Below, piece after piece: positions 9,324 to 37,337 of a DNA stretch of 64,000 nt. Positions within the stretch are counted from its first letter, which is position 1; each line of letters starts with the position of its first letter. Source of the stretch: Microbacterium sp. JZ31. Its GTDB lineage: Bacteria > Actinomycetota > Actinomycetes > Actinomycetales > Microbacteriaceae. The DNA is taken from the NCBI RefSeq assembly GCF_016805985.1, contig NZ_CP017661.1:310001-374000 (forward strand). Direction: 5' to 3'. The translations under genes and the position numbers were made by a program. The notes under the pieces are model-generated. The model saw nothing but the letters and a program-made list of their open reading frames with translations, did not search any database and had not been told where the DNA came from.

Positions 9324-9710
9324 TCACTTCGCGATGCGCGCGACGACGTCGATCTCGACGAGGATGTTCGCCAGCTGCGAGCCCACCGTGGTGCGCACGG
9401 GGTAGGGCTCCGAGAAGAACTCCCGGTAGGCCGCGTTGAACTCCTCGAAGTCGGCGAGGTCCGCGAGGTGCACGGTCGACTTCAGGACGTGGTCGAGCGT
9501 CGCTCCGTGCTGGGCGAGGACGGCCTGGATGTTGCGCAGCACCTGGCGCGTCTGATCCGCCACGTTCTCGGCCACGGCTCCGGTGGCCGGATCCTGGGGG
9601 CCGAAGCCCGCGGTGAACAGCAGGTCGCCGCTCACGATCCCCTGGCTGTACGGCCCGGCGGGTGCCGGCGCATCGGTGGTCTGGATGGCTTTCTTGGTCG
9701 CGTCGGTCAT
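9324..9710 (-). CDS. ridA: RidA family 2-iminopropanoate/2-aminoacrylate deaminase
   Basis: A 128-residue RidA/YjgF protein, which hydrolyses reactive enamine/imine intermediates released by PLP-dependent dehydratases. It has APAGPYSQGIVSGDLLFTAG near the N-terminus, and the C-terminal region reads NILVEIDVVARI. The conserved substrate-binding arginine is seen in EPYPVRTTVG, and the terminal glutamate in VEID. The ATG at 9710-9708 overlaps the stop of the D-aminoacylase gene (ATGA), so it is the third gene of an operon with the MFS transporter and deacylase. Its presence fits a partner PLP dehydratase, which is encoded in the neighbouring operon at 13631. Confidence 0.93.
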   Translation of the reverse strand: MTDATKKAIQTTDAPAPAGPYSQGIVSGDLLFTAGFGPQDPATGAVAENVADQTRQVLRNIQAVLAQHGATLDHVLKSTVHLADLADFEEFNAAYREFFSEPYPVRTTVGSQLANILVEIDVVARIAK

Positions 9711-11344
9711 GCGTCTCCCTTTCGTGATGGCGGAACTTCCGGGTGTGCGAGGGGTCGCCCCCGCGTCCCCGCGGGCGTGGCGCGGACGCCGCCACCCGGG
9801 TGTGCGCCGGTCAGCCTGCCTCCGGAGAGGACCGGCTGCCCGGCGACGAGTACATCCTCGACGCCTTCGGCCAGCAGGCCGGGGTCGTCGTAGGTGGCCC
9901 TGTCGGTCACGGCATGCGGATCGATCAGCGCGATGTCTGCGATGCCGCCGCGGCGGATCCGGCCGCGGTCGCCGAGGCGGAAGCGTTCGGCCGGCCCCGT
10001 CGAGAGGTGCCGCACCGCCTGAGGCCAGTCGAGGAAGCCGTGCTCGCGCAGGTACGTGGCGAGGTACGAGGCGAAGGCGCCGCGAGCGCGCGGATGCGGG
10101 TGGGCGCCGATGAAGATGCCGTCGGACCCTCCCAGGTGCGCGGGGTGGGCGATCAGTCTGCCGAGGTCCGACACCGGACGCTGGTCGCGCACGGCCATGA
10201 TCGCGTTCACCTCGAGCCGGGACGCGACGAGCAGATCCAGCGCGGCGTCGACGGCGTCGGTGCCGCGGCGCGCGGCGATGTGCGCGAGCGTCAGACCGTG
10301 CGCCCACGCGAACTCGGCCGACGCCGTGTGTCCGATCGTGATCAGCTCGGGCCACTGCTCGCCCAGGCTCGGGTACAGGGCGACGAGCGGGAACCACTCG
10401 CGGCGCAGGCGTTCGCGTTCGGCGGGCATGTCGATCCTGCGCGCGGCGTCGTCGGGCGGCAGGGCGTTCAGCTCGGGCGGCAGCAGCGTCATGCCCAGGA
10501 TCGAGCAGCCTCTCGTGTACGGGTAGGCGTCGAACGTCGCGCTCACGCCCCGGGAGGCGAGCAGGTCCATGAGCCGCCAGGCCTCGTCGGCACGGGTGTG
10601 GAAATGCGAGATGTGCACGCCGACGTCCGCGAGCTCCGCGATGCGCGCGACCTCCTCCACGCCGGCGTGCGAGTTGTCCTCGTATCCGCCGCGCATGTGG
10701 GTGACGTAGGGAAGTCCGGCGGCCGACAGCGGCGCGCACAGCGCGGCGATCTCCTCGGCGTCCGCGAACAGGCCGGGCACGTAGTCGAGGCCGGTGGACA
10801 GCCCCGCGGCGCCGTCGGCGATGCCCTCCGCCACCAGCGCGACCATGCGCGCCCGCTCGTCGGCGTCCGCCGGGCGCGGCACGGAGCCCATCACCTGCTG
10901 CCGGACGGTGCCGGCGGGGACGAGGTAGGCGACGCCGAGCGGGATACGCCCGTCGTACGTCGCGAGCAGGTCGGCGACGCGCGGCCCGCGATACGTGGGG
11001 TGAGGGCCGTTGATGGCGGCGAAGTAGGTCGACGCGTGCGCGCCGTCCCCGGGCGCGTACGAGATGCCGTCCTGCCCGCCGATCACCGTCGTGATGCCCT
11101 GACGCAGCAGGGCGAGCTGCACGGCTTCGTCGAAGACCGTCCCCTCGGCGTGGGCATGGGCGTCGATGAAGCCGGGGACGACGAGGCGGCCGTCCGCATC
11201 GATCACCGCGTCGGCGTCGGCGAGGCCGCCGGCGATCGTCCCGACTTCGACGATGCGGTCGTCCTCGACGCGCACGTCGGCGCGGACGGGGGAGTCCCCG
11301 TCCGCGCCGACGACCGTGCCGCCTCGGATGACGACGCGCGTCAC
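9707..11344 (-). CDS. N-acyl-D-amino-acid deacylase (D-aminoacylase family amidohydrolase)
   Basis: A 545-residue cytosolic amidohydrolase with a TIM-barrel metal site. The first metal motif is DAHAHAEG (Asp61, His63, His65). Later His residues occur in VGVHISHFH, and the D-aminoacylase signature with aspartate and HPR follows in GSDGIFIGAHPHPRARGAF. The usual cysteine in the GNCG-type loop is replaced: this protein reads IGGQDGISYAP there. The family removes N-acyl groups from D-amino acids. Here the genes for a KDG-forming pathway nearby suggest N-acetyl-D-glucosaminate as substrate (inference). The start is GTG at 11344-11342, overlapping the MFS stop by 4 bases. The C-terminal 30 residues are Pro/Arg-rich and divergent. 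Confidence 0.88.
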   Translation of the reverse strand: MTRVVIRGGTVVGADGDSPVRADVRVEDDRIVEVGTIAGGLADADAVIDADGRLVVPGFIDAHAHAEGTVFDEAVQLALLRQGITTVIGGQDGISYAPGDGAHASTYFAAINGPHPTYRGPRVADLLATYDGRIPLGVAYLVPAGTVRQQVMGSVPRPADADERARMVALVAEGIADGAAGLSTGLDYVPGLFADAEEIAALCAPLSAAGLPYVTHMRGGYEDNSHAGVEEVARIAELADVGVHISHFHTRADEAWRLMDLLASRGVSATFDAYPYTRGCSILGMTLLPPELNALPPDDAARRIDMPAERERLRREWFPLVALYPSLGEQWPELITIGHTASAEFAWAHGLTLAHIAARRGTDAVDAALDLLVASRLEVNAIMAVRDQRPVSDLGRLIAHPAHLGGSDGIFIGAHPHPRARGAFASYLATYLREHGFLDWPQAVRHLSTGPAERFRLGDRGRIRRGGIADIALIDPHAVTDRATYDDPGLLAEGVEDVLVAGQPVLSGGRLTGAHPGGGVRATPAGTRGRPLAHPEVPPSRKGDA

Positions 11345-12675
11345 GCGCGCTCCGCGTGGAGCTCGCGTGCCGGTTCGCCCGTCCCGGTGCCGATCCGGAA
11401 CGTCGCCGCCGCGGTGGCGACCGCTCCCACCGCGCAGATCACGACGACGTAGACCACGACCGGCCAGATCTCGCCCTGAGCCCAGCCGACGAGCGCCGTC
11501 GCGATGAGCGGCGCGAGACCGCCGCCGAGCGTGTTGGAGAGCTGATAGCCGATGTTCACGCCCGTCGTGCGCTGTTCGACGTCGAACATCTCGGTGAGCA
11601 TCGTCTGGAGCGTGCCCTGCATCGCGACGCCGGGGATCACGAAGCCGACGATCATGCCCAGCCAGATCAGCCACTCGTTGCCGGTGCCGTACAGAAGGAA
11701 GGTCGGCCAGACGAGCGCGGCGAAGCCGATGCAGCCGGCGATGTACACGGTGCGCCGTCCGATCCGGTCCGACAGCGCGCCGTACGACGGCGCGACGACG
11801 ATCTGGAGCGCGCCCACGATCATCGTGCCGATGAAGCCGACCTGCGCCGCCGTGCCCTCCGAGACCATGAAGGACAGCCCGAACGTGAGCACGACGTAGC
11901 CCGCGATCGACTGCGGCAGGCCGATCAGGATGCCGAGGACGGCGTTCTTGGGGTGACGCAGCACCTCCACGAGCGGCGCCGAGCGCTTCACCTGTCCGAT
12001 CGCGATCGCCTGCGTGTGCCGCGTGAACTCCTCGGACTCCTCGAGCTGACGGCGCAGCAGGATCGCGATGATCGCCAGGACCAGGGCGAACACGAACGGG
12101 ATGCGCCAGCCCCACGTCATGAAGAACGAGTCGGGGCCGAGGCCGAGGCCCGCCATCATGCCCGCGGAGGCGACGTTCGCGATGCCGGCGCCGCTGATCA
12201 GGAAGGCGCCGTAGAGGCCGCGCCGCCCGGCGGGCGCGTGCTCGACCACCATGGTCGCCGCCCCGCCCATCTCGCCGCCGACGAACAGGCCCTGCAGCAT
12301 GCGCAGGAACAGCAGCAGCAGCGGCGCCGCGAGGCCGATCATCGCGTCGGGCGGGATGAGGCCGATCGCGGCGGTGGTGATGCCCATGCCGATCACGGTC
12401 ACGAGGAGCGTCACCTTGCGGCCCAGCCGGTCGCCGATGTGGCCGAACACGAGACCGCCGACGGGACGCAGGATGAAGCCCACGGCGAAGGTCGCGAACG
12501 AGGACAGCTGCGCGACGAAGGGGTCCTCCTGGGAGAAGAAGACCGCGGGGAAGACCGTGGCCGACGCCAGCCCGTAGAGGTAGTAGTCGAAGTACTCCAT
12601 CAGCGTGCCGATGGAGCCGCCGGCGATCGTCCGCTTCTGCGCCCGGCTGAGCGGCACGCGCGTTCCGCGATTCAT
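11341..12675 (-). CDS. MFS transporter, metabolite:H+ symporter (MHS) type
   Basis: A 444-residue, 12-helix major facilitator protein. The MHS-type opening (GTLMEYFDYYLYGLAS) and the loop 2-3 motif GHIGDRLGRKVTLLVTVIGM are clear, and ALSDRIGRR repeats it in the second half. MHS members import organic acids, betaines and similar anions with protons. As first gene of an operon with the deacylase and RidA it probably brings in the operon's substrate, an acylated acidic compound. The start at 12675 has GGGGAG seven bases upstream. An in-frame ATG at 12795 would add 40 charged residues but lies inside the promoter/leader and is rejected. Confidence 0.88.
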   Translation of the reverse strand: MNRGTRVPLSRAQKRTIAGGSIGTLMEYFDYYLYGLASATVFPAVFFSQEDPFVAQLSSFATFAVGFILRPVGGLVFGHIGDRLGRKVTLLVTVIGMGITTAAIGLIPPDAMIGLAAPLLLLFLRMLQGLFVGGEMGGAATMVVEHAPAGRRGLYGAFLISGAGIANVASAGMMAGLGLGPDSFFMTWGWRIPFVFALVLAIIAILLRRQLEESEEFTRHTQAIAIGQVKRSAPLVEVLRHPKNAVLGILIGLPQSIAGYVVLTFGLSFMVSEGTAAQVGFIGTMIVGALQIVVAPSYGALSDRIGRRTVYIAGCIGFAALVWPTFLLYGTGNEWLIWLGMIVGFVIPGVAMQGTLQTMLTEMFDVEQRTTGVNIGYQLSNTLGGGLAPLIATALVGWAQGEIWPVVVYVVVICAVGAVATAAATFRIGTGTGEPARELHAERA

Positions 12676-12734
12676 GCGCCTGCTCCCCGGGCGTGCTGCT
12701 GTCGTGTCGTGTTCACAGGAATCCTCCCCGGAGG

Positions 12735-12784
12735 GGCTGGAGTACTCCAGCCGGACGTTCGGTGGGCGTCGCTCATCGAGCGAC
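12735..12784. repeat. Two perfect inverted repeats in the MFS operon leader
   Basis: An 18-base perfect palindrome (12735-12752, centre GGAGTACTCC) and a 7-bp stem with a 3-base loop (12768-12774 with 12778-12784) lie between the operon promoter and the MFS start. They could fold in the leader RNA or bind a dimeric protein. No terminator-like T-run follows. Confidence 0.45.
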
Positions 12785-12796
12785 GTTGCGAGCACG

Positions 12797-12842
12797 CTAA
12801 CAGCGACTTAACAGAAGTTCTAGTGTCTTAGCAGAAATTATA
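12797..12842 (-). promoter_or_regulatory. Promoter and repeated operator of MFS-deacylase-ridA operon
   Basis: On the minus strand a perfect TATAAT -10 occupies 12842-12837. Downstream of it, written on the plus strand, are CTTAGCAGAAATT (12827-12839) and CTTAACAGAAGTT (12807-12819). These match at 11 of 13 positions and are spaced exactly 20 bases, two helical turns. A shorter copy (CTAACAG) is at 12797-12803. This AT-rich block also separates the operon from the divergent regulator gene, whose product is the obvious candidate binder. The same motif recurs at the kinase operon promoter (16483). Confidence 0.6.
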
Positions 12843-12901
12843 TATACGAGTAACACCGGCGAAATGAGACAATGGCGGGACGGCGACGAACGGAGACACA
12901 C

Positions 12902-13582
12902 GTGCCCACGCTGCTGCCCGCCACGGATGCCCGCTTCGAGAGCGTCGAGGATCTCCATCGCGTCGTGGAGCCCGTCATGCGCGCGATCGCCGCCGCGGTC
13001 GGGTCCCACTGCGAGGTCGTGCTGCACGACCTCTCCTCGCGCGACCTCGACCACTCCATCTACGCGATCGTGAACGGCCATGTGAGCGGTCGCAGCGTCG
13101 GCGGCCCCTCGACGAACCTCGGGTTCGAGGTGCTGCGCGACGAGAGCGCCGACCACAACGCCTTCGGCTATCGCGGCCGCACGGTGGACGGGCGTGAGCT
13201 CGTCAGCTCGTCGGTCTACTACCGCGACCCCGCGGGGCGCATCCTCGCGGCGCTGTGCATCAACGTCGACCTCACGCCGATGCAGAGCGCGCTGAACGCG
13301 ATCGCCGCCCTCGCACCCGCACCGCAGGCCGAGGCGGAGGGGCCCAAGGAGGTCGTCGGCCCGGACATCGCCCGCGTCCTCGACGACATGATCTCGGAGG
13401 CCATCGCGACGGTCGGCAAGCCCACGCCCGACATGGGGAAGTCCGACCGGATCGAGGTCCTCCGTCTGCTCGACTCGCGCGGAGCGTTCCACATCAAGCG
13501 GGCCGCGGATCGGGTCTCCGCACGGCTCGGCGTCTCGCGCGTGACCGTCTACGGCTACCTGGACGAGGTGCGGCGCGGCTGA
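12902..13582 (+). CDS. YheO/DauR-like transcriptional regulator (PAS-like domain plus C-terminal HTH)
   Basis: A 226-residue regulator. Residues about 15-125 are a YheO-like PAS domain (VEPVMRAIAAAVGSHCEVVLHDL, then a GRSVGG region and CINVDLTPM). The C-terminal 60 residues form the DauR-type helix-turn-helix (AADRVSARLGVSRVTVYGYLDE). DauR in Pseudomonas controls D-arginine catabolism and relatives often sit beside D-amino-acid genes. GTG 12902 is chosen because GGAGA lies 5 bases upstream. ATG 12872, in frame, has a weak site and would add ten residues. It diverges from the MFS operon and faces the PLP-enzyme operon, so it probably controls both, sensing the pathway substrate or KDG. Confidence 0.85.
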   Translation: MPTLLPATDARFESVEDLHRVVEPVMRAIAAAVGSHCEVVLHDLSSRDLDHSIYAIVNGHVSGRSVGGPSTNLGFEVLRDESADHNAFGYRGRTVDGRELVSSSVYYRDPAGRILAALCINVDLTPMQSALNAIAALAPAPQAEAEGPKEVVGPDIARVLDDMISEAIATVGKPTPDMGKSDRIEVLRLLDSRGAFHIKRAADRVSARLGVSRVTVYGYLDEVRRG

Positions 13583-13630
13583 GCCGCCCCGCCCCATCCG
13601 CCCGTCCGACCCCAGCGGGGGCGCGCGGTC

Positions 13631-14848
13631 TCAGAAGAAGGTCTCGAGCGCCTCGGTGACGATGCCGTCGGCGCCGACGACCGGGATGAGCCGCCACTTG
13701 TCGAAGGCGGTGCAGGGGTGCGAGAGCCCGAGCCGCACGACGTCGCCGACGGCGACGGGAGACGATCCCTGCCAGCGCAGGAACGCGTGCTGGTCGTTCA
13801 GCGCGGTGATCTCGGCGCGCAGGGGCCGCTCCGCGCCGCCGAGAGCGCCCGCGACGCCGAGGGGCACCGGCAGTCCCTCGTCGAAGGGGAGGTCGCGCTT
13901 GCCCGCGTCGAGCAGGGCGAGGCCCGGCTCGGGCAGGGAGACCACGCGCGCGAAGCCGTGCATCGCGGGACGCAGGAACTCGGCGTCCTCGGCGCGAGCG
14001 GGATCGAGCGGGGAGATGCCCCGGTAGAAGCCGTCGTCGTGGACCACGTAGGCCCCCGAGCGCAGGATGGCGCGCGCGTCGCGCACGCGCGCGAGGCTCT
14101 CGGCCACCAGGTCGAAGTAAGCGCTGCCGCCCGCCGTGATCCAGGGCCTGCCGACGACGTGGGGCCGGACCCGCTCCACGAGTGCGGCGAGCTCGTCGCA
14201 GTACGCGCGGACGGCCGCGAGGGCGGCGGGCGAGCGGTCGTGGGCCAGGGCGCCCTCGTAGCCGGCGACGCCGCGCAGCTCCAGGACGTCCGACGCTGCG
14301 ACCCTCCGCGCGAGCTCGACGAGCTCGTCCGCGTCGCGGCAGCCGGTGCGCCCGCCTGCCGCGCCGAGCTCGACGAGCACGCCGAGCCTTGAGCCGTCGG
14401 GAAGCGCCGCCTCCAGCACGTCGATCGTCGCCGCGGAATCGGCCCAGCAGACCACCTCCTGGGCCGGATGATCCGCGAGCCATGCGGCGAGGCGGCGCAG
14501 CAGCGCGGGATCGGTGCACGCATTGGCGATCTGCACGGTGCCGACGCCCGCGCGCAGCGCGACGTCCGCCTGCCACCCGGTGGCGACCGTGATGCCGGTC
14601 GCGCCGGCCTCGAGCTGGCGCCGCCAGAGCACCGGCGCCATCGTGGTCTTGCCGTGCGGCATGAGCTCGAGGCCGCGCCGCGCGACCCAGGCGGCCATCG
14701 TGCGCACGTTGTGGGCGAGCGCATCGCCGTCGAGCGCCAGCAGGGGCGTGGAGAACTCGGCGAGCGGCGTGGCGAGGGCGGACGCGTCGTGTCCCTCCAG
14801 GCTCGCGGGGAAGGACTTGTCGAGCGGTCCGATGCGGCGGGTCGTCAT
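13631..14848 (-). CDS. D-serine dehydratase-like / D-threonine aldolase-like PLP enzyme (candidate D-glucosaminate deaminase)
   Basis: A 405-residue fold-type III PLP enzyme. The PLP lysine is Lys67 in PHGKTTMAP, and the C-terminal zinc pair of eukaryotic-type D-serine dehydratase is present as HPC (His377, Cys379) in LSHPCTAFDKW. Such enzymes eliminate ammonia from D-amino acids with a beta-hydroxyl. D-Glucosaminate has that same arrangement and would give 2-keto-3-deoxygluconate, the substrate of the kinase encoded two genes upstream. That substrate is inference; D-serine, D-threonine or hydroxy-D-aspartate remain possible. The ATG at 14848 overlaps the stop of the aldolase gene (ATGA). Last gene of its operon. 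Confidence 0.85.
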   Translation of the reverse strand: MTTRRIGPLDKSFPASLEGHDASALATPLAEFSTPLLALDGDALAHNVRTMAAWVARRGLELMPHGKTTMAPVLWRRQLEAGATGITVATGWQADVALRAGVGTVQIANACTDPALLRRLAAWLADHPAQEVVCWADSAATIDVLEAALPDGSRLGVLVELGAAGGRTGCRDADELVELARRVAASDVLELRGVAGYEGALAHDRSPAALAAVRAYCDELAALVERVRPHVVGRPWITAGGSAYFDLVAESLARVRDARAILRSGAYVVHDDGFYRGISPLDPARAEDAEFLRPAMHGFARVVSLPEPGLALLDAGKRDLPFDEGLPVPLGVAGALGGAERPLRAEITALNDQHAFLRWQGSSPVAVGDVVRLGLSHPCTAFDKWRLIPVVGADGIVTEALETFF

Positions 14849-15483
14849 CGGTCGAACACCTCCGCGAGGCGGGCGAGCTCCTCCGGATCCCCGAGCGCCG
14901 AGCCGACCGCGACGACCCGCACGCCGGCGTCGAGGAACCGCGAGGCGTTGGCCGCGCTGAGGCCGCCGGTCGCGACGAAATGCACGTCGGGGAACGGGCC
15001 GCGCATGGCGGTGAACCACTCGGTGCCCAGGGCGGATGCGGGGAAGGCCTTCAGCCAGCGCAGGCCGGCGACGGAGGCGCGCTGCACCTCGGACGCGGTG
15101 GCGACGCCGGGAAGCGACGGCATGCCTGCCGCCTCGCTCGCCTCGACCACCTCGAGGTCGAGGCCGGGGCTCACGGTGAAGGCGGCGCCCGCGTCGGCCG
15201 CCGTCCGCACGCCCGCGCGGTCGAGGATCGTTCCCGCTCCGACCTTCTTGCCGCGTTCCCTCCCCGCGGCGACCACGGCGGCGAGCGCCTCGACGTCCGT
15301 CGCCGACTGGAGCGGGACCTCGACCGCCTCGATGCCGAGATCCCATGCCGTACGGGCCAGCGCGAGGCTGCGTTCCACGCCCATGCCGCGCAGGATCGCC
15401 ATGAGCGGCGCCCCGGCGAAGATCTCGTCGAAGGCGCCGCGCTCGCCGCGTGCGCTCCCGGCCGCCGTGCTGTGATCCGTCAT
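14845..15483 (-). CDS. eda: 2-dehydro-3-deoxy-phosphogluconate (KDPG) aldolase family protein
   Basis: A 212-residue class I aldolase of the KDPG/KHG family, splitting KDPG into pyruvate and glyceraldehyde 3-phosphate. Motifs are PLMAILRGM with the ERSLALARTAWD helix, VGAGTILDRAG, FTVSPGLD, and the Schiff-base lysine in LRWLKAFPAS, followed by VATGGLS, the phosphate site. The ATG at 15483 has AGGAAG eight bases upstream. A GTG at 15492, overlapping the kinase stop as GTGA, is an alternative. Middle gene of the kinase-aldolase-deaminase operon. Confidence 0.9.
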   Translation of the reverse strand: MTDHSTAAGSARGERGAFDEIFAGAPLMAILRGMGVERSLALARTAWDLGIEAVEVPLQSATDVEALAAVVAAGRERGKKVGAGTILDRAGVRTAADAGAAFTVSPGLDLEVVEASEAAGMPSLPGVATASEVQRASVAGLRWLKAFPASALGTEWFTAMRGPFPDVHFVATGGLSAANASRFLDAGVRVVAVGSALGDPEELARLAEVFDR

Positions 15484-15488
15484 GACTC

Positions 15489-16460
15489 TCACTTCCTGCT
15501 CGTGGGGAGGGCTTCGCGCGATGCGCGTGGCTCCGGCGTCGACGGGGCCTGCTCATCCGCGGGCACGTCGTGCGTGCTGGACAGGGCGCGCGCGGCGAAG
15601 GCGTGGCCGCGGTAAAGGCGCTCGGCGGCGTCCGCGCCGCCCAGCAGGCCGTCGAGCCAGCCGGCGGCGAACGCGTCTCCCGCCCCCACGGGTTCCACGA
15701 CCTCGACCCGCCGCGCGGGGACGGCGATGCGCTCGTCGCGCGAGAACTCGACAGCTTCGACATCCGCGTCCTTGACGACGAGGTGGGGAGCGTCGGGGAA
15801 CAGCGCGCGCACGTCGTCGGCGGTCCCGGCGCCCCACAGGTCGGCGGCCTCGTCGCGGCCTGTCCACACGATGTCCGCACGTCGTGCCGCCGCGCCGATC
15901 ACCGTCGCGGCGGTCTCGACGTCCGGCCACAGCGCCGGGCGGTGGTTGACGTCGAAGCTCACCAGCACGTCGTGCGCCCGTGCCGCGTCGATCGCGGCGT
16001 CGACGAGGGCGCGGCAGTTCGCCGAGAGCGCCGGGGTGATCCCCGACAGGTGCAGGATGCGCACGTCGTCCCACGCGATCCTCGTCAGGTCGTCGGGAGA
16101 GAGACGGGACGCGGCCGAGCCACGGCGGTAGTAGCTCACGCCCGCTCCGGGATCCTTCACGTAGAGGCCCGTGGGGGCGGACGGGTCGAGGCGGACGGCG
16201 GCGGTGTCGACGCCTGCCCGGTCGAGGCGGGAGCGCACCCGCCTGCCCAGCGCGTCGTCCCCGAGTGCGCTCAGCCAGGCCGCTCGTCGCCCCGCTGCGG
16301 CGAGGTGGCACGCGACGTTCGACTCGGCACCGCCCGTCTCGATGCGGAAGTCCTCGGCCGCCTCGACGCGCTCGGCGCGGGCCGGCACCACGAGCGCCAT
16401 CGTCTCGCCGATGCTGAGGACGTCGACGCCTCTTGATCCGGGCGTTGCACGTGTCTGCAC
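15489..16460 (-). CDS. kdgK: PfkB family sugar kinase, probable 2-keto-3-deoxygluconate kinase
   Basis: A 323-residue ribokinase-type kinase. The N-terminal DVLSIGETMALVVP and TGGAESNVACHLAAAG are typical of KDG kinases, and the second PfkB signature EPVGAGDAFAAGW carries the catalytic Asp. The KDG assignment rests on this subfamily look and on the KDPG aldolase gene directly downstream. A fructokinase-like role is the main alternative. The start is GTG at 16460-16458, with GAGGT five bases upstream. It is the first gene of the operon, 26 bases after the expected transcription start. The last 30 residues are a Pro/Ser/Arg-rich extension. Confidence 0.85.
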   Translation of the reverse strand: MQTRATPGSRGVDVLSIGETMALVVPARAERVEAAEDFRIETGGAESNVACHLAAAGRRAAWLSALGDDALGRRVRSRLDRAGVDTAAVRLDPSAPTGLYVKDPGAGVSYYRRGSAASRLSPDDLTRIAWDDVRILHLSGITPALSANCRALVDAAIDAARAHDVLVSFDVNHRPALWPDVETAATVIGAAARRADIVWTGRDEAADLWGAGTADDVRALFPDAPHLVVKDADVEAVEFSRDERIAVPARRVEVVEPVGAGDAFAAGWLDGLLGGADAAERLYRGHAFAARALSSTHDVPADEQAPSTPEPRASREALPTSRK

Positions 16461-16482
16461 GGCGACCTCTCGTCTCGTCTAT

Positions 16483-16521
16483 CTTGACAAGAATTATTCG
16501 GCCTTTACCGAAATCATGCAA
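16483..16521 (-). promoter_or_regulatory. Promoter and operator of kdgK-eda-deaminase operon
   Basis: Minus-strand -35 TTGCAT (16521-16516), a 17-base spacer and -10 AATAAT (16498-16493). An inverted repeat TTCGG/CCGAA (16497-16501, 16508-16512) fills the spacer. Written on the plus strand, CTTGACAAGAATT (16483-16495) overlaps the -10 at the same offset as CTTAGCAGAAATT does at the MFS operon. This geometry suits repression at initiation. Confidence 0.6.
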
Positions 16522-33203: not shown

Positions 33204-34157
33204 ATGGAGCGCATGAGCTACGCCCAGCGGGTCGCCGCCCGACGCCGGGCGGTGTTCCTGCGCCGCGCCCGGCGGGTGGCGGTCATCGCGCTCGCGGCGG
33301 CGACCATGCTCGTGGCCGAGGTGTCGCTCATCTCGCAGCTCGTCGACCGCGGAGAGGCCGCGGCGGTCGTGCGCGAAGGCGCGCCCGAGGCGCCCGCCGC
33401 GCTCATCCCCGTGCCCGTGATCGAGCAGGTCGAGGCGGCGGATCCGCCCGAGGGCTGCGCCGCCGATGCCGCCCTCCGGGCGAAGGACCCCGCCGCGCTC
33501 ATGAAGGCGTTCGGGGGCGCGGCGGCGATGCACGCGGCGGTTCGCGCCGGAGACGCACCGTGCGTGTCGCTCGACGATCCGGCGCTGCCGTGGGTCGTGG
33601 TGAACAAGCAGCGCCCGCTCGATCCGATCCACTACGCCCCGGCCGAGCTGCGGGTGCCGCCGTCGCATGTGACCGACGCCAGCCTGCGCGCCGACGTGGT
33701 GGACTCGTTCGAGCAGCTCGTCGCGGAGGCGGCGAACGCTGGCGCGGGCAGCCTCTCGCTCTTCAGCGGCTACCGGTCCTACGACACGCAGGTGAGCACC
33801 TACGACTCGCAGGTCGGCGCGCGCGGGCAGCAGAAGGCCGATGCGCTCTCGGCGCGACCGGGTTTCAGCGAGCACCAGCTCGGGCTCGCGGCCGACGTCG
33901 TCGCGTGCGGTGCCGCGGGCTGCGGCACGATCTACGAGTTGGGCGGGACGCCGCAGGGCGAGTGGCTCGCGCAGAACTCGTGGCGCTTCGGCTGGATTAT
34001 CCGCTACGAGCACGGCCACACGCACGCCACGGGGTACGAGCCCGAGCCGTGGCACCTGCGGTACATCGGCCCCGAGCTCGCCGCGGTCTATCACGAGGGC
34101 GGCTATCACTCGCTCGAGGAGTTCTTCGGCCTGCCCGCCGCCCCCGACTACCGCTGA
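33204..34157 (+). CDS. VanY-type D-alanyl-D-alanine carboxypeptidase (peptidase M15)
   Basis: A 317-residue membrane-anchored or exported peptidoglycan peptidase. A basic start and hydrophobic segment (about 20-42) form a signal anchor. The zinc site of M15B is clear: SGYRSYDTQ, then SEHQLGLAADVV with its His and Asp, and EPWHLRYIG with the catalytic Glu and the third ligand His. The region from about 45 to 150 links membrane and domain. The start may be 33204 or the ATG at 33213. The enzyme trims the terminal D-Ala from stem peptides; a vancomycin-resistance role is not implied because no vanHAX-type genes are near. Confidence 0.92.
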   Translation: MERMSYAQRVAARRRAVFLRRARRVAVIALAAATMLVAEVSLISQLVDRGEAAAVVREGAPEAPAALIPVPVIEQVEAADPPEGCAADAALRAKDPAALMKAFGGAAAMHAAVRAGDAPCVSLDDPALPWVVVNKQRPLDPIHYAPAELRVPPSHVTDASLRADVVDSFEQLVAEAANAGAGSLSLFSGYRSYDTQVSTYDSQVGARGQQKADALSARPGFSEHQLGLAADVVACGAAGCGTIYELGGTPQGEWLAQNSWRFGWIIRYEHGHTHATGYEPEPWHLRYIGPELAAVYHEGGYHSLEEFFGLPAAPDYR

Positions 34158-34286
34158 TCCGATCCGGCGCGTCGGCCTGTGATGCCGCGCCGGCGAGCGT
34201 GTACGGAGTACTGTCTGCCTCGACAAGCCCGGACACCGTCCCGGGCGCGCCCGGACGCACGACGTCCCCTGACCTCTGGAGAGACG

Positions 34287-36200
34287 ATGAAGTTCTTCCA
34301 ACGACTCGGCCGGTCGCTGATGCTGCCGGTCGCCGTGCTGCCCGTCGCGGCGATCCTGTCCGGCATCGGCTACTGGATCGCCGGAGCCGCCGGCGAGAAC
34401 GTCGCATCGGCGTTCTTCGCCGCGGCCGGCGGTGCGCTCCTCGACAACATGGCGCTGCTGTTCGCGGTCGGTGTCGCGATCGGCATGTCCGACAAGTCCG
34501 ACGGCACCTCCGCGCTCGCCGGTCTCGTCTCGTGGCTGACGGTGACGACGATGCTCAAGCCCGAGACCGTGCAGGTGCTGACCGGCGCGGCGGAGCTGGA
34601 GGCCGTCGACCCCGCGTTCGACAGGGTGCAGAACGTGTTCGTCGGCATCCTGTGCGGCCTGATCGGCGCCTGGGCGTACAACCGCTTCAAGAACACGAAG
34701 CTGCCCGATTGGCTCTCGTTCTTCTCGGGCAAGCGCTCGGTCGCCATCGTGAGCGCCGGGATCTCGCTGCTCGTCGCGATCGCGCTGTTCTTCGTGTGGC
34801 CCCTCGTGTTCGGAGGCCTCGTGACCTTCGGCGAATGGATCCTGACCCTCGGTCCGGTGGGCGCGGGCATCTACGGCATGATGAACCGCCTGCTCATCCC
34901 GCTCGGTCTGCACCACGCGCTCAACTCGGTGTTCTGGTTCGACATCGCGGGCATCAACGACCTGCAGAACTTCCTGGACGGCGCGGGCGGCGACGGCGTG
35001 TACGGCGTCACGGGGCAGTACATGACGGGCTTCTTCCCGATCATGATGTTCGGTCTGCCGGGCGCGGCCCTGGCGATGTACGTGACGGCGAAGAGCACGC
35101 GGAAGAAGGTGGTGGGCGGCATCCTGCTGTCGGCGGGTGTGGCGTCGTTCTTCGTCGGCGTCACCGAGCCCCTTGAGTTCGCGTTCCTGTTCTTGGCACC
35201 CTGGCTGTACGTCATCCACGCGGTGTTCATGGGCATCTCGCTGGCGATCTCGGCGCTGCTGCCGGTGCGCATGGGCTTCGGCTTCTCGGGCGGCTTCATC
35301 GATCTGGTGCTGGGCTGGGTCAATCCGCTCGCGCAGAACCCGTGGCTGATCCCGGTCATGGGCGTCGCCTGGTTCGTGATCTACTTCCTCGTGTTCCGCT
35401 TCGTCATCCTGAGGTTCCGGCTGAAGACGCCGGGTCGCGAGGACGACGAGGACCTGACGACCGACACGGGAAGCGTGGGCGACGCGCGGTTCGCGGCCAC
35501 GGCCGAGCGCTTCATCGCGGGCCTGGGCGGCAAGGACAACATCGTCTCGCTGGACAACTGCGCCACGCGCCTGCGGTTGGAGGTGGCGGATCCCGCGAGG
35601 GTCGATGAAGCCGCCCTGCGGCGCGCCGGCGCCGCGGGCACCATGAAGCCGGGCGGGAAGAGCGTGCAGGTCGTCTACGGCCTGAACGTGCAGTTCGTGA
35701 AGGACGCCATGGAGGATCTGATGGCGGGGCGGGAGCCCGCGGCGACGACGGCCTCGGGCGTCACGCCGCATGCGCCCGTGGCCACGCTCGCACCGGCGGT
35801 CGTCACGCTCCGGCAGCCCATCGCGGGGCGCGTGCTGCCGCTGTCGGAGGTCCCCGATCCGATGTTCGCGGAGGCGACGATGGGTCCGGGCGTCGCGATC
35901 GAGCCGACCGGCGACACGGTGGTCGCACCGGCCGACGGCATCGTGACGACGATGTTCCCGACGGCGCATGCGGTGGGGATGACGCTCCCCGACGGCACCG
36001 AGCTGCTGATCCACATCGGCATCGACACCGTGCGACTCAAGGGCGACGGGTTCCGTCCGCTCGTGGCCCAGGGTGCCGAGGTAAAGGCGGGCGAGCCGCT
36101 CGTGTCGTTCGATCCGGCGAGCATCCGCGCGGCGGGGCTGTCGCTCATCACGCCGGTGATCGTCGTCAACAACGAGGACGCGACGATCCGCTTCTCCTGA
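34287..36200 (+). CDS. PTS transporter subunit IIC-IIB-IIA, N-acetylglucosamine type (NagE-like)
   Basis: A 637-residue fused phosphotransferase permease that imports and phosphorylates an amino sugar or glucose. The IIC domain (1-385) has the loop GLHHALNSVFWFDIAGINDL, which resembles NagE rather than PtsG, and the GVTEPLEFAF signature. IIB follows, with phospho-cysteine in DNCATRLRLEV (about 430). The IIA domain has the active histidine in LLIHIGIDTVRLKGDGF (about 575). The ATG at 34287 has GGAGAG just upstream; upstream in-frame codons belong to the leader. N-acetylglucosamine is the likeliest substrate, which fits chitin use suggested elsewhere in the window. Confidence 0.92.
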   Translation: MKFFQRLGRSLMLPVAVLPVAAILSGIGYWIAGAAGENVASAFFAAAGGALLDNMALLFAVGVAIGMSDKSDGTSALAGLVSWLTVTTMLKPETVQVLTGAAELEAVDPAFDRVQNVFVGILCGLIGAWAYNRFKNTKLPDWLSFFSGKRSVAIVSAGISLLVAIALFFVWPLVFGGLVTFGEWILTLGPVGAGIYGMMNRLLIPLGLHHALNSVFWFDIAGINDLQNFLDGAGGDGVYGVTGQYMTGFFPIMMFGLPGAALAMYVTAKSTRKKVVGGILLSAGVASFFVGVTEPLEFAFLFLAPWLYVIHAVFMGISLAISALLPVRMGFGFSGGFIDLVLGWVNPLAQNPWLIPVMGVAWFVIYFLVFRFVILRFRLKTPGREDDEDLTTDTGSVGDARFAATAERFIAGLGGKDNIVSLDNCATRLRLEVADPARVDEAALRRAGAAGTMKPGGKSVQVVYGLNVQFVKDAMEDLMAGREPAATTASGVTPHAPVATLAPAVVTLRQPIAGRVLPLSEVPDPMFAEATMGPGVAIEPTGDTVVAPADGIVTTMFPTAHAVGMTLPDGTELLIHIGIDTVRLKGDGFRPLVAQGAEVKAGEPLVSFDPASIRAAGLSLITPVIVVNNEDATIRFS

Positions 36201-36218: not shown

Positions 36219-37337
36219 TCAGAACAGGCGCGCGGGCTCCGGTGCCTGCGGGCGGACCTTCGCCGCGGCGCGGCCGCGCGAGGTCGTGATGATCCGTGCC
36301 GGGTTCGGCTGCGCTGAGCCCGGCTGCCCCTGTGCGGGCCCTGCTCCCGCGGTCACGGGCCGGCGCCACGGATCCTCGTCCGAACGGCCGTAGAGCCCGT
36401 GCGACCGCACGAGGGGGCGGATGCGCTGCGCGAGCATCGAGCGATATGCCTGCGGCGCGTTGACCGAGGCCCCGGGGTAGAGGCCGCGATACACCGGCAG
36501 CAGCTCGGGATGCTCGCGCGCCAGCCACTGCATGAACCACGGCTTGACCCCCGGACGCAGGTGCAGAGCACCGTGCACGACCCGCGCCGCGCCGGCGGCC
36601 CTGACCCGCGCGAGCGCCGCGTCCAGCGCCTCGGGCGAGTCGGTGAGGTGGGGCAGGATCGGCATCATGAACACCGAGACCGGGAACCCGGCGTCTGCCG
36701 CGGCCTTCACGGTGTCGAGGCGGGCCTGCGCGGTCGGCGTCCCGGGCTCGATCGCCTGCTGCAGCTCGTCGTCGTAGACGGCGATCGACATCGCGATCGA
36801 GATCGGCACCTGATCGTGCAGCCGGGTCAGCAGCGGCAGGTCGCGGCGCAGCAGCGATCCCTTCGTCAGGATCGAGAACGGCGTTCCCGACTCCGCGAGA
36901 GCGGTCGCGATGCCGGGCATCAGCTTGTAACGGCCCTCGGCCCGCTGATACGGGTCGGTGTTCGTGCCGAGCGCCACGTGCTCGCGGTTCCAGCTCGGCC
37001 GCGCGAGCTCGCGCCGCAGCACCTCGTCGACGTTGACCTTCACGACGATCTGCGAGTCGAAGTCCTTGCCGGCGTCGAGGTCGAGGTACTCGTGCGTCCC
37101 GCGGGCGAAGCAGTAGACGCACGCATGCGTGCATCCCCGGTAGGGATTGATCGTCCAGTCGAACGGCATGCTGCTCGAGCGCGGCACGTGGTTGAGGGCC
37201 GACTTCGCCGCGACCTCGTGGAACGTGACGCCCGCGAACTCGGGCGTCGTCACGCTGCGCACGAGGCCGTCGAGCACCTCCATGCCGGGCAGCGCGTTCG
37301 CGTCCGCCATTCCCAGTTCCTGTCCCTGCCACCGCAT
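36219..37337 (-). CDS. Rv2578c family radical SAM protein
   Basis: A 372-residue radical SAM protein. NPYRGCTHACVYCFAR carries the CX3CX2C iron-sulphur cysteines (about residues 69-76). ALGTNTDPYQRAEG, FSILTKGSLLRRD and the helical C-terminal region with PWFMQWL match the actinobacterial Rv2578c group, related to spore-photoproduct-lyase-like SplB proteins. The start at 37337 (MRWQGQEL) is the family's usual start and lies 6 bases after a TCGACT -10 with TTGACA at 17-base spacing. Function is unproven, perhaps nucleic-acid repair or modification. The tail is Pro/Gln/Arg-rich. Confidence 0.9.
   Translation of the reverse strand: MRWQGQELGMADANALPGMEVLDGLVRSVTTPEFAGVTFHEVAAKSALNHVPRSSSMPFDWTINPYRGCTHACVYCFARGTHEYLDLDAGKDFDSQIVVKVNVDEVLRRELARPSWNREHVALGTNTDPYQRAEGRYKLMPGIATALAESGTPFSILTKGSLLRRDLPLLTRLHDQVPISIAMSIAVYDDELQQAIEPGTPTAQARLDTVKAAADAGFPVSVFMMPILPHLTDSPEALDAALARVRAAGAARVVHGALHLRPGVKPWFMQWLAREHPELLPVYRGLYPGASVNAPQAYRSMLAQRIRPLVRSHGLYGRSDEDPWRRPVTAGAGPAQGQPGSAQPNPARIITTSRGRAAAKVRPQAPEPARLF

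Follow-up and report, generated by a model that had tools for sequence, protein, structure and literature searches.

Which compound is degraded by a gene set in which a relative of the D-aminoacylases and a fold-III pyridoxal-phosphate (PLP) enzyme stand beside a PfkB-family kinase and an aldolase of the 2-keto-3-deoxy-6-phosphogluconate (KDPG) type? Such a set occupies positions 9324-16460 of the window, i.e., the whole stretch of 64,000 nucleotides analysed here (Microbacterium sp. JZ31, contig NZ_CP017661.1, positions 310,001 to 374,000), which is part of a complete genome of 3,194,418 bases in one contig and has a G+C content of 69-74% in 4-kb steps along its length. Judged from sequence comparison, and with a probability of roughly 0.6, the two operons of this set would break down an N-acetyl-D-hexosaminate, for which N-acetyl-D-glucosaminate (GlcNAc1A) is the likeliest candidate.

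Gene set and proposed pathway

The set consists of two adjacent minus-strand operons and one plus-strand regulator gene, with gene families assigned by Pfam, NCBIfam and PDB sequence comparison (lengths in amino acids, aa):

9324..9710, minus strand: RidA/YjgF-family protein, 128 aa (PF01042, E 5e-32; TIGR00004, 115.9 bits, cut-off 106.25)
9707..11344, minus strand: amidohydrolase of the D-aminoacylase fold, 'GQDG' (Asp-for-Cys) group, 545 aa (Amidohydro_3, PF07969); proposed N-acetyl-D-hexosaminate deacetylase
11341..12675, minus strand: importer of the MHS (metabolite/H+ symporter) type of the MFS, 444 aa from the ATG at 12675, with a longer frame from 12795 (MFS_1, PF07690)
12872..13582, plus strand: regulator with YheO-like PAS and HTH_22 domains (DauR-type), 236 aa (PAS_6, PF08348, and HTH_22, PF13309, both over cut-off)
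13631..14848, minus strand: fold-III PLP enzyme, OngC-like, 405 aa (Ala_racemase_N, PF01168, and D-ser_dehydrat, PF14031); proposed D-glucosaminate (2-amino-2-deoxyaldonate) dehydratase/deaminase
14845..15492, minus strand: KDPG-type aldolase, 215 aa, with Glu58, Lys148 and Thr175, the Thr161 equivalent (KDPG/KHG Aldolase, PF01081, E 1e-35)
15489..16460, minus strand: PfkB-family kinase, 323 aa, GAGD motif with Asp262 (PF00294, E 6e-43); proposed 2-keto-3-deoxygluconate (KDG) kinase

In the first operon the importer is followed by the deacylase and RidA, and the regulator gene, whose type we take to be that of DauR, is divergent from it; the second runs from the kinase through the aldolase to the PLP enzyme. 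With the starts chosen here, 4-bp overlaps are found at the RidA/deacylase, deacylase/MHS, PLP/aldolase and aldolase/kinase junctions. The closest named proteins belong to Microbacterium sp. (91% identity for the deacylase, 88% for the PLP enzyme), and the best PDB relative of the kinase is the KDG kinase 1v19 (E 7e-41). The catalytic residues E58 and K148 are present in the aldolase, as are the catalytic K67 and the zinc ligands H377 and C379 in the PLP enzyme, this Lys/His/Cys set being invariant in 39 sequences. The original prediction, made from the letters of the window, had named these genes, their place and their families as well as Lys67, His377 and Cys379; all genes are open frames with Pfam matches, and the three residues are exact.

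In the proposed pathway, of which we infer every substrate, every reaction and the metal geometry, the MHS importer would take up the acid, and the deacylase would release acetate at a metal site of two His and Asp92 (for Cys), with Asp408 acting as the general base/acid. Elimination of water at C2-C3 of the free 2-amino acid by the PLP enzyme would leave an enamine/imine, whose hydrolysis, RidA helping, would yield ammonia and KDG. Phosphorylation by the PfkB kinase would then give KDPG, which the aldolase would split into pyruvate and glyceraldehyde 3-phosphate.

Comparison with the ong pathway

A cluster of similar composition is the ong cluster of Pseudoalteromonas prydzensis. In the passages of PMC9537276 used here and below, knock-outs and enzyme assays are described according to which OngB (deacetylase), OngC (fold-III PLP enzyme) and KdgK convert GlcNAc1A to KDG 6-phosphate; OngD (RidA) is given as essential and of unknown role, the ong clusters of Vibrio, Klebsiella and Serratia include a KDPG aldolase, and complete pathways are reported for Gammaproteobacteria and one Betaproteobacterium. 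The reading frames of the P. prydzensis locus examined here (L106) match this cluster, with an OngD of 127 aa as in PMC9537276, and the window proteins are 35% (OngC), 29% (OngB), 28% (KdgK) and 26% (OngD) identical to their counterparts.

The enzyme order that had been predicted for a GlcNAc1A route agrees with the ong pathway, in which the same superfamilies act in that order (PMC9537276, as above). Both clusters combine a deacylase, a fold-III PLP deaminase, RidA and a PfkB kinase, the KDPG aldolase being shared with Vibrio, Klebsiella and Serratia. The two also differ, however: in the same source the ong cluster has a sodium/solute symporter (SSS) and the RpiR-type regulator OngR, whereas the window has the MHS importer and the YheO/DauR-type regulator (elsewhere often IclR); the window set contains neither a TonB-dependent receptor (TBDR) nor OngA, it is actinobacterial, and its deacylase comes from another group. 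The chemistry is probably that of ong, carried out in another phylum with a deacylase of a separate group and with another transporter and regulator.

In the passages of PMC9537276 used, the proven route is proteobacterial, and no OngB-grade deacetylase was matched in any of 296 sampled actinomycete genomes at E 1e-80 in a search made without a positive control. Among the titles and abstract openings of open-licence PMC literature, no actinobacterial or Streptomyces version of the pathway was found, which is a weak negative. A haloarchaeal route from N-acetylglucosamine (GlcNAc) via D-glucosaminate, predicted only in the parts of PMC12343721 used, likewise leads from an oxidised amino sugar to KDPG, but differs in its CE14 deacetylase, its glucose dehydrogenase and its ammonia-lyase.

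Concerning the PLP enzyme, OngC and PDB 3gwq (labelled D-serine deaminase) carry the same Lys, His and Cys set and are 35-40% identical to the window protein. In a tree built by a quick method, from which other D-serine deaminase branches were left out, 75 ong-type rows and 3gwq form one group (support 100), and the window enzyme lies outside this OngC clade, as one of 60 actinobacterial rows that group together with support 91. The remainder of the 63 actinobacterial rows comprises one beside ong (L254), one beside D-threonine aldolase (L251) and one without a resolved place (L231), long branches being flagged. The actinobacterial enzymes as a sister clade of OngC were dropped as a candidate arrangement, only the ong side forming a supported group. 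As a side observation, 3gwq (from Burkholderia xenovorans) stands inside the OngC group beside Paraburkholderia genes located near OngB-like genes, and by sequence it may be a solved OngC structure.

Recurrence in other actinobacteria

The genes do not stand together by mere chance, since many other actinobacterial genomes have the same set in altered arrangements. Of 198-199 sampled genomes of the host family, 37 have the deacylase (E 1e-60) and 61 the PLP enzyme (E 1e-30). From this family, 37 of the 39 deacylase places and three PLP-only places were taken as regions of up to 20 kb; a further 40 loci from the wider actinomycete search were picked by score and by hand, a non-random choice. 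A neighbour was counted when centred within 8 kb of an Asp-type deacylase (35 regions in the family, 38 outside, 73 in total), and the scan for neighbour-gene families covered 50 selected proteins. The PLP enzyme is nearby in 34 of the 35 family regions, RidA in 30, kinase plus aldolase in 20, IclR in 20, and the MHS importer and the YheO-type regulator in 4 each. The hand-picked regions outside the family give 25 of 38 for the PLP enzyme, 24 for RidA, 16 for the kinase and 6 for kinase plus aldolase; over all 73 regions the counts are 54 (RidA), 26 (kinase plus aldolase), 36 (IclR), 5 (MHS) and 5 (YheO-type regulator). The IclR gene, common near the deacylases of relatives, is absent from the window cluster. 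Gene order and strand differ among the clusters, as would be expected if selection keeps the set together and not if a single frozen operon had been inherited. The entire set, including the MHS importer and the regulator, is found in one further member of the host's genus (L217), whose genome (G381) possesses a lytic polysaccharide monooxygenase (LPMO) of family AA10.

Within the host family, the KDPG-aldolase family occurs in 31 of 35 genomes with an Asp-type deacylase and in 76 of the 163 genomes without one (p 3.5e-6, with no correction for phylogeny). Two of the four aldolase-negative genomes carry in the cluster a gene of the dihydrodipicolinate synthase (DHDPS) family (L077 by tblastn, L079 by Pfam; 78% identical to each other), with neither kinase nor KDPG aldolase there, and the other two (L071, L072) a lactonase-like gene and a short-chain dehydrogenase/reductase (SDR). 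Lactonases of PF10282 are present in L092 and L095, of which the L071 and L072 genes are 28-29% identical relatives. The SDR gene lies between the PLP and deacylase genes in L071, L072 and L219; that of L072 exceeds the NCBI 'glucose 1-dehydrogenase' subfamily cut-off (235.2 vs 215) and that of L219 is just under it (210.1). In L232, from an AA10-positive genome (G440), a glycoside hydrolase family 20 (GH20) gene (E 2e-97) stands directly upstream of the deacylase gene, with a 4-bp overlap by our own gene calls, and in L064 a weaker GH20 match adjoins an ATP-binding cassette (ABC) importer of sugar type, the ABC binding protein being encoded inside the cluster. The association with GH20, lactonase, SDR, DHDPS and aldolase fits a C1-oxidised N-acetylhexosamine that is degraded via KDG or its epimer. 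The substrate that had been predicted thus gains support from the GH20, lactonase, SDR, ABC importer and DHDPS genes of relatives as far as the class of compound is concerned, be it GlcNAc1A or N-acetyl-D-galactosaminate (GalNAc1A).

Brachybacterium contigs of equal size (256163, 260394 and 3720646) appeared in both the deacylase and the PLP protein searches; because of these equal sizes, the two genes probably lie on the same contigs. Six genomes of about 7-10 Mb from one family and genus (L235-L240, which would be Streptomyces) show a block of deacylase, PLP enzyme and IclR, with a PfkB gene in five of them (not in L239).

Evidence weighed against the pathway

Weighing against an N-acetylhexosaminate as the substrate are several residues of the deacylase, some family scores and neighbourhoods, and the chitin-related genes, taken here in this order. 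Passages of PMC12017989 report the structure of OngB (PDB 9kb1, 9kb3) and the residues that separate it from D-aminoacylases, a subtype V metal site (Cys97/His222/His252) and a kcat/Km on GlcNAc1A of 0.6-1.6 per mM per s. In the alignment, the window deacylase keeps both metal His, but has Asp92 at the position of the ligand Cys97, and the carboxylate anchor Lys254 is replaced by His249 (mostly His or Thr across the actinobacterial group). The OngB contacts to the sugar hydroxyls are likewise altered (Ser290 to Gly279, Glu226 to Tyr221, and probably Gln298, whose column holds Leu in the window, the loop alignment there being uncertain). Further changes are Ala193 to Asp187 and Ser291 to Cys280; at the Ser292 position the window has Ser281 and many relatives Thr, and the loop after the second metal His is shorter. 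Retained are the catalytic set D408, H63 and H65 (OngB Asp368, His68, His70) and the carboxylate anchors Tyr274 (OngB Tyr285) and Arg419 (OngB Arg379). Conservation was read from 54 rows, among them 34 locus rows picked among Asp types and 19 search matches that were unchecked beforehand; the Cys97 equivalent is Asp in 73 of 77 aligned deacylase relatives.

The deacylase tree, which is unrooted, comprised 41 of the 73 Asp types, all four Cys types, 17 of the 80 ong-type loci (the best 80 for an OngB fragment, more having existed), AfDam and PDB 9g5m. The 41 Asp rows lie on one side of a branch with support 100/98; across it the OngB rows are grouped (98/98 with 9g5m, 100/100 with AfDam added). 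The window deacylase was rejected as an OngB orthologue on its residues (Cys97 to Asp, Lys254 to His) and its tree position; from the residue set of the D-aminoacylases (Cys/His/His, Lys, and Thr at 292) it departs at Asp92, His249 and Ser281. With AfDam (1m7j, aligned) and BbDam (3gip, by fold) it has the fold and most catalytic residues in common, but AfDam retains the Cys ligand and the Lys, both missing from the window protein. By sequence, the deacylase belongs to a separate actinobacterial GQDG group with an altered metal ligand, a branch of the amidohydrolase family not known for this role. A broader view, which we put forward tentatively and hold to be somewhat less probable than its opposite, is that this group could be an independently evolved GlcNAc1A deacetylase family (Asp for the subtype V Cys) that would make oxidised-amino-sugar catabolism common in actinobacteria (about 82 of 296 genomes, a few Cys types included), in some lineages fed by intracellular C1 oxidation through SDR and lactonase and not by LPMOs. 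If the pathway proposed for the window is true, the same pathway would have been put together with an enzyme from a different branch of one amidohydrolase family in which the metal ligand has changed, and the name N-acyl-D-amino-acid deacylase, given at present to many proteins, would have to be replaced. Grouped with the OngB types in the tree is the Klebsiella pneumoniae 'N-acyl-D-amino-acid deacylase' 9g5m/9gv8, with Ser290/291/292, Gln298, Ala193 and Ala256; from these residues it looks like OngB under another name.

Family scores stay low for three proteins: the importer reaches 362.8 bits against TIGR00883 (metabolite/H+ symporter, cut-off 443.45), the kinase 145.3 vs 440, 124.9 vs 400 and 78.9 vs 400 bits against the NCBIfam KDG-kinase models, and the aldolase 146.1 vs 156.05 bits against TIGR01182 (eda). 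The KDG-kinase cut-off is strict, since PpKdgK itself gets 251.5 vs 400 bits. No NCBIfam cut-off was reached by the L092 and L072 lactonases or the L079 DHDPS protein. As to neighbourhoods, 15 of the 35 family Asp-type regions have neither kinase nor aldolase nearby, which weakens the original argument that these two enzymes would be pointless for D-amino acids; outside the family, the PLP gene is absent nearby in 13 of 38 and the kinase-aldolase pair in 32 of 38.

Actinobacteria are important chitin degraders in soil, and the original prediction had seen a chitin diet behind one further gene of the window:

34179-36200, plus strand: GlcNAc-specific phosphotransferase system (PTS) component IIBC, NagE-like (TIGR01998, 595.1 bits, cut-off 553.2)

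The gene is real, but the link to chitin fails for the host: neither an AA10 LPMO (PF03067) nor a GH18 chitinase was found in the complete 3.19-Mb genome, and a GlcNAc PTS alone is no proof of oxidised-chitin use. One GH20 gene lies away from the cluster (two matches in one 495-aa frame). A chitin-degrading host was rejected on the absence of AA10 and GH18, GH19 not having been searched. AA10 is present in 5 of 198 genomes of the host family and GH18 in 52. The search of relatives suggested earlier showed the set recurring and GH20 adjoining it in L232, but within the family the deacylase is linked neither to LPMOs (2 of 37 genomes with it vs 3 of 161 without, p 0.23, one of the two being of Cys type) nor to GH18 (12 of 37 vs 40 of 161, p 0.41). 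Across the 296 actinomycete genomes, AA10 occurs in 51 of the 82 that have the deacylase and in 34 of the 214 that lack it (p 3e-14, phylogenetically confounded; the counts assume the same 296 genomes in both searches, and the deacylase count may include Cys-type matches), and with family f26 removed in 25 of 56 vs 33 of 213 (p 1e-5). This class-wide linkage follows the families f26 and f24 and is thus no independent evidence. In one family of about 6-11 Mb genomes, which would be Streptomyces, 26 of 27 LPMO-bearing genomes are deacylase-positive. Some parts of the class may plausibly live on chitin; the host, with neither AA10 nor GH18, could import GlcNAc1A produced by other organisms. If the pathway is true, it becomes possible to test directly what happens in soil to chitin ends oxidised by LPMOs. 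In another genome (G085), GH18 and AA10 domains lie about 400 bases apart on contig C4 (116252-118123), in frames with the same open length of 755 aa, and its cluster (L066) on another contig.

Alternative substrates

Another hexosaminate, chiefly GalNAc1A, would be degraded to 2-keto-3-deoxygalactonate and by cleavage of its 6-phosphate (KDPGal); we consider this unlikely. A D-specific PLP enzyme presumably need not distinguish C4 epimers, and the clusters with SDR and lactonase suggest a possible intracellular oxidation of a hexosamine, beyond LPMOs alone. The stereoselectivity residues of the aldolase give a mixed answer. Passages of PMC4915726 place Thr161 in KDPG aldolases and Val154 in KDPGal aldolases at the selective site; the window protein has T175 there, i.e., the KDPG type on strand 7 and not Val, whereas its strand 1, MAIL, is nearer to that of the E. 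coli KDPGal aldolase than to IPVI of Vibrio KdgA and differs in type from that of the E. coli KDPG aldolase (positions from PMC4915726). No galactosamine-specific gene was found among the scanned neighbours. The A-x-L pattern of strand 1 also occurs, against its use for GalNAc1A, in an aldolase chain from PDB sequences attributed to T. maritima, which we take to be a KDPG aldolase. On the predicted stereochemistry of the aldolase, GlcNAc1A is favoured over GalNAc1A.

Less likely still is an operon for the scavenging of N-acyl-D-amino acids (deacylase, D-Ser/D-Thr deaminase, RidA, MHS importer, DauR-like regulator) beside an unrelated KDG operon. Several database names for the deacylase are N-acyl-D-amino-acid deacylase, and clusters such as L087, L088 and L090 show, of the probed genes, only the deacylase, the PLP enzyme and RidA. 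OngC also deaminates D-Ser and D-Thr (PMC9537276, in the passages used), so kinship of the PLP enzyme leaves the substrate unfixed, a further point against a hexosaminate. Yet the window PLP gene sits in the kinase/aldolase operon, the 26 Asp-type regions with kinase and aldolase show several gene orders, and the Lys254 and Cys97 of D-aminoacylases are missing.

A deacylase acting on another aldonate or sugar-acid amide (N-formyl, N-glycolyl or lactam), with the downstream steps still via KDG, would agree with the distinct metal ligand and pocket residues and the shorter loop, but is improbable, the GH20 gene beside the deacylase in L232 and the GlcNAc PTS of the host favouring the acetyl form.

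Regulation and further observations

The upstream stretches of five loci were compared by eye for an operator common to both operons of the window. A weak box resembling ACAnnnTGTCTA precedes the regulator in L063, L067 and L217, but the pattern ACANNNTNTCTA had 0 matches in the window, and a shared operator is therefore not claimed. Repeats similar to TTGCAAC/AATTGCA are seen before the kinase in the IclR-positive L067 and L217, and the TTGCAT-ATTT part is kept at 16461-16520 of the window, where the cluster contains no IclR gene (all by eye).

Concerning the range of ong-type genes, many of the best 80 loci belong to Burkholderiaceae, i.e., to more betaproteobacteria than the one named in the passages of PMC9537276 used, and on a contig of an Acidobacteriaceae metagenome-assembled genome (L145) OngB-like, OngC-like and RidA genes stand together, beyond the proteobacterial range given there. 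Elsewhere in the window, a relative of the LdcB/DacB-like LD-carboxypeptidases (score under cut-off) is encoded at 33204-34157 on the plus strand and an Rv2578c-family radical SAM protein (above the NCBI equivalog cut-off) at 36219-37337 on the minus strand.

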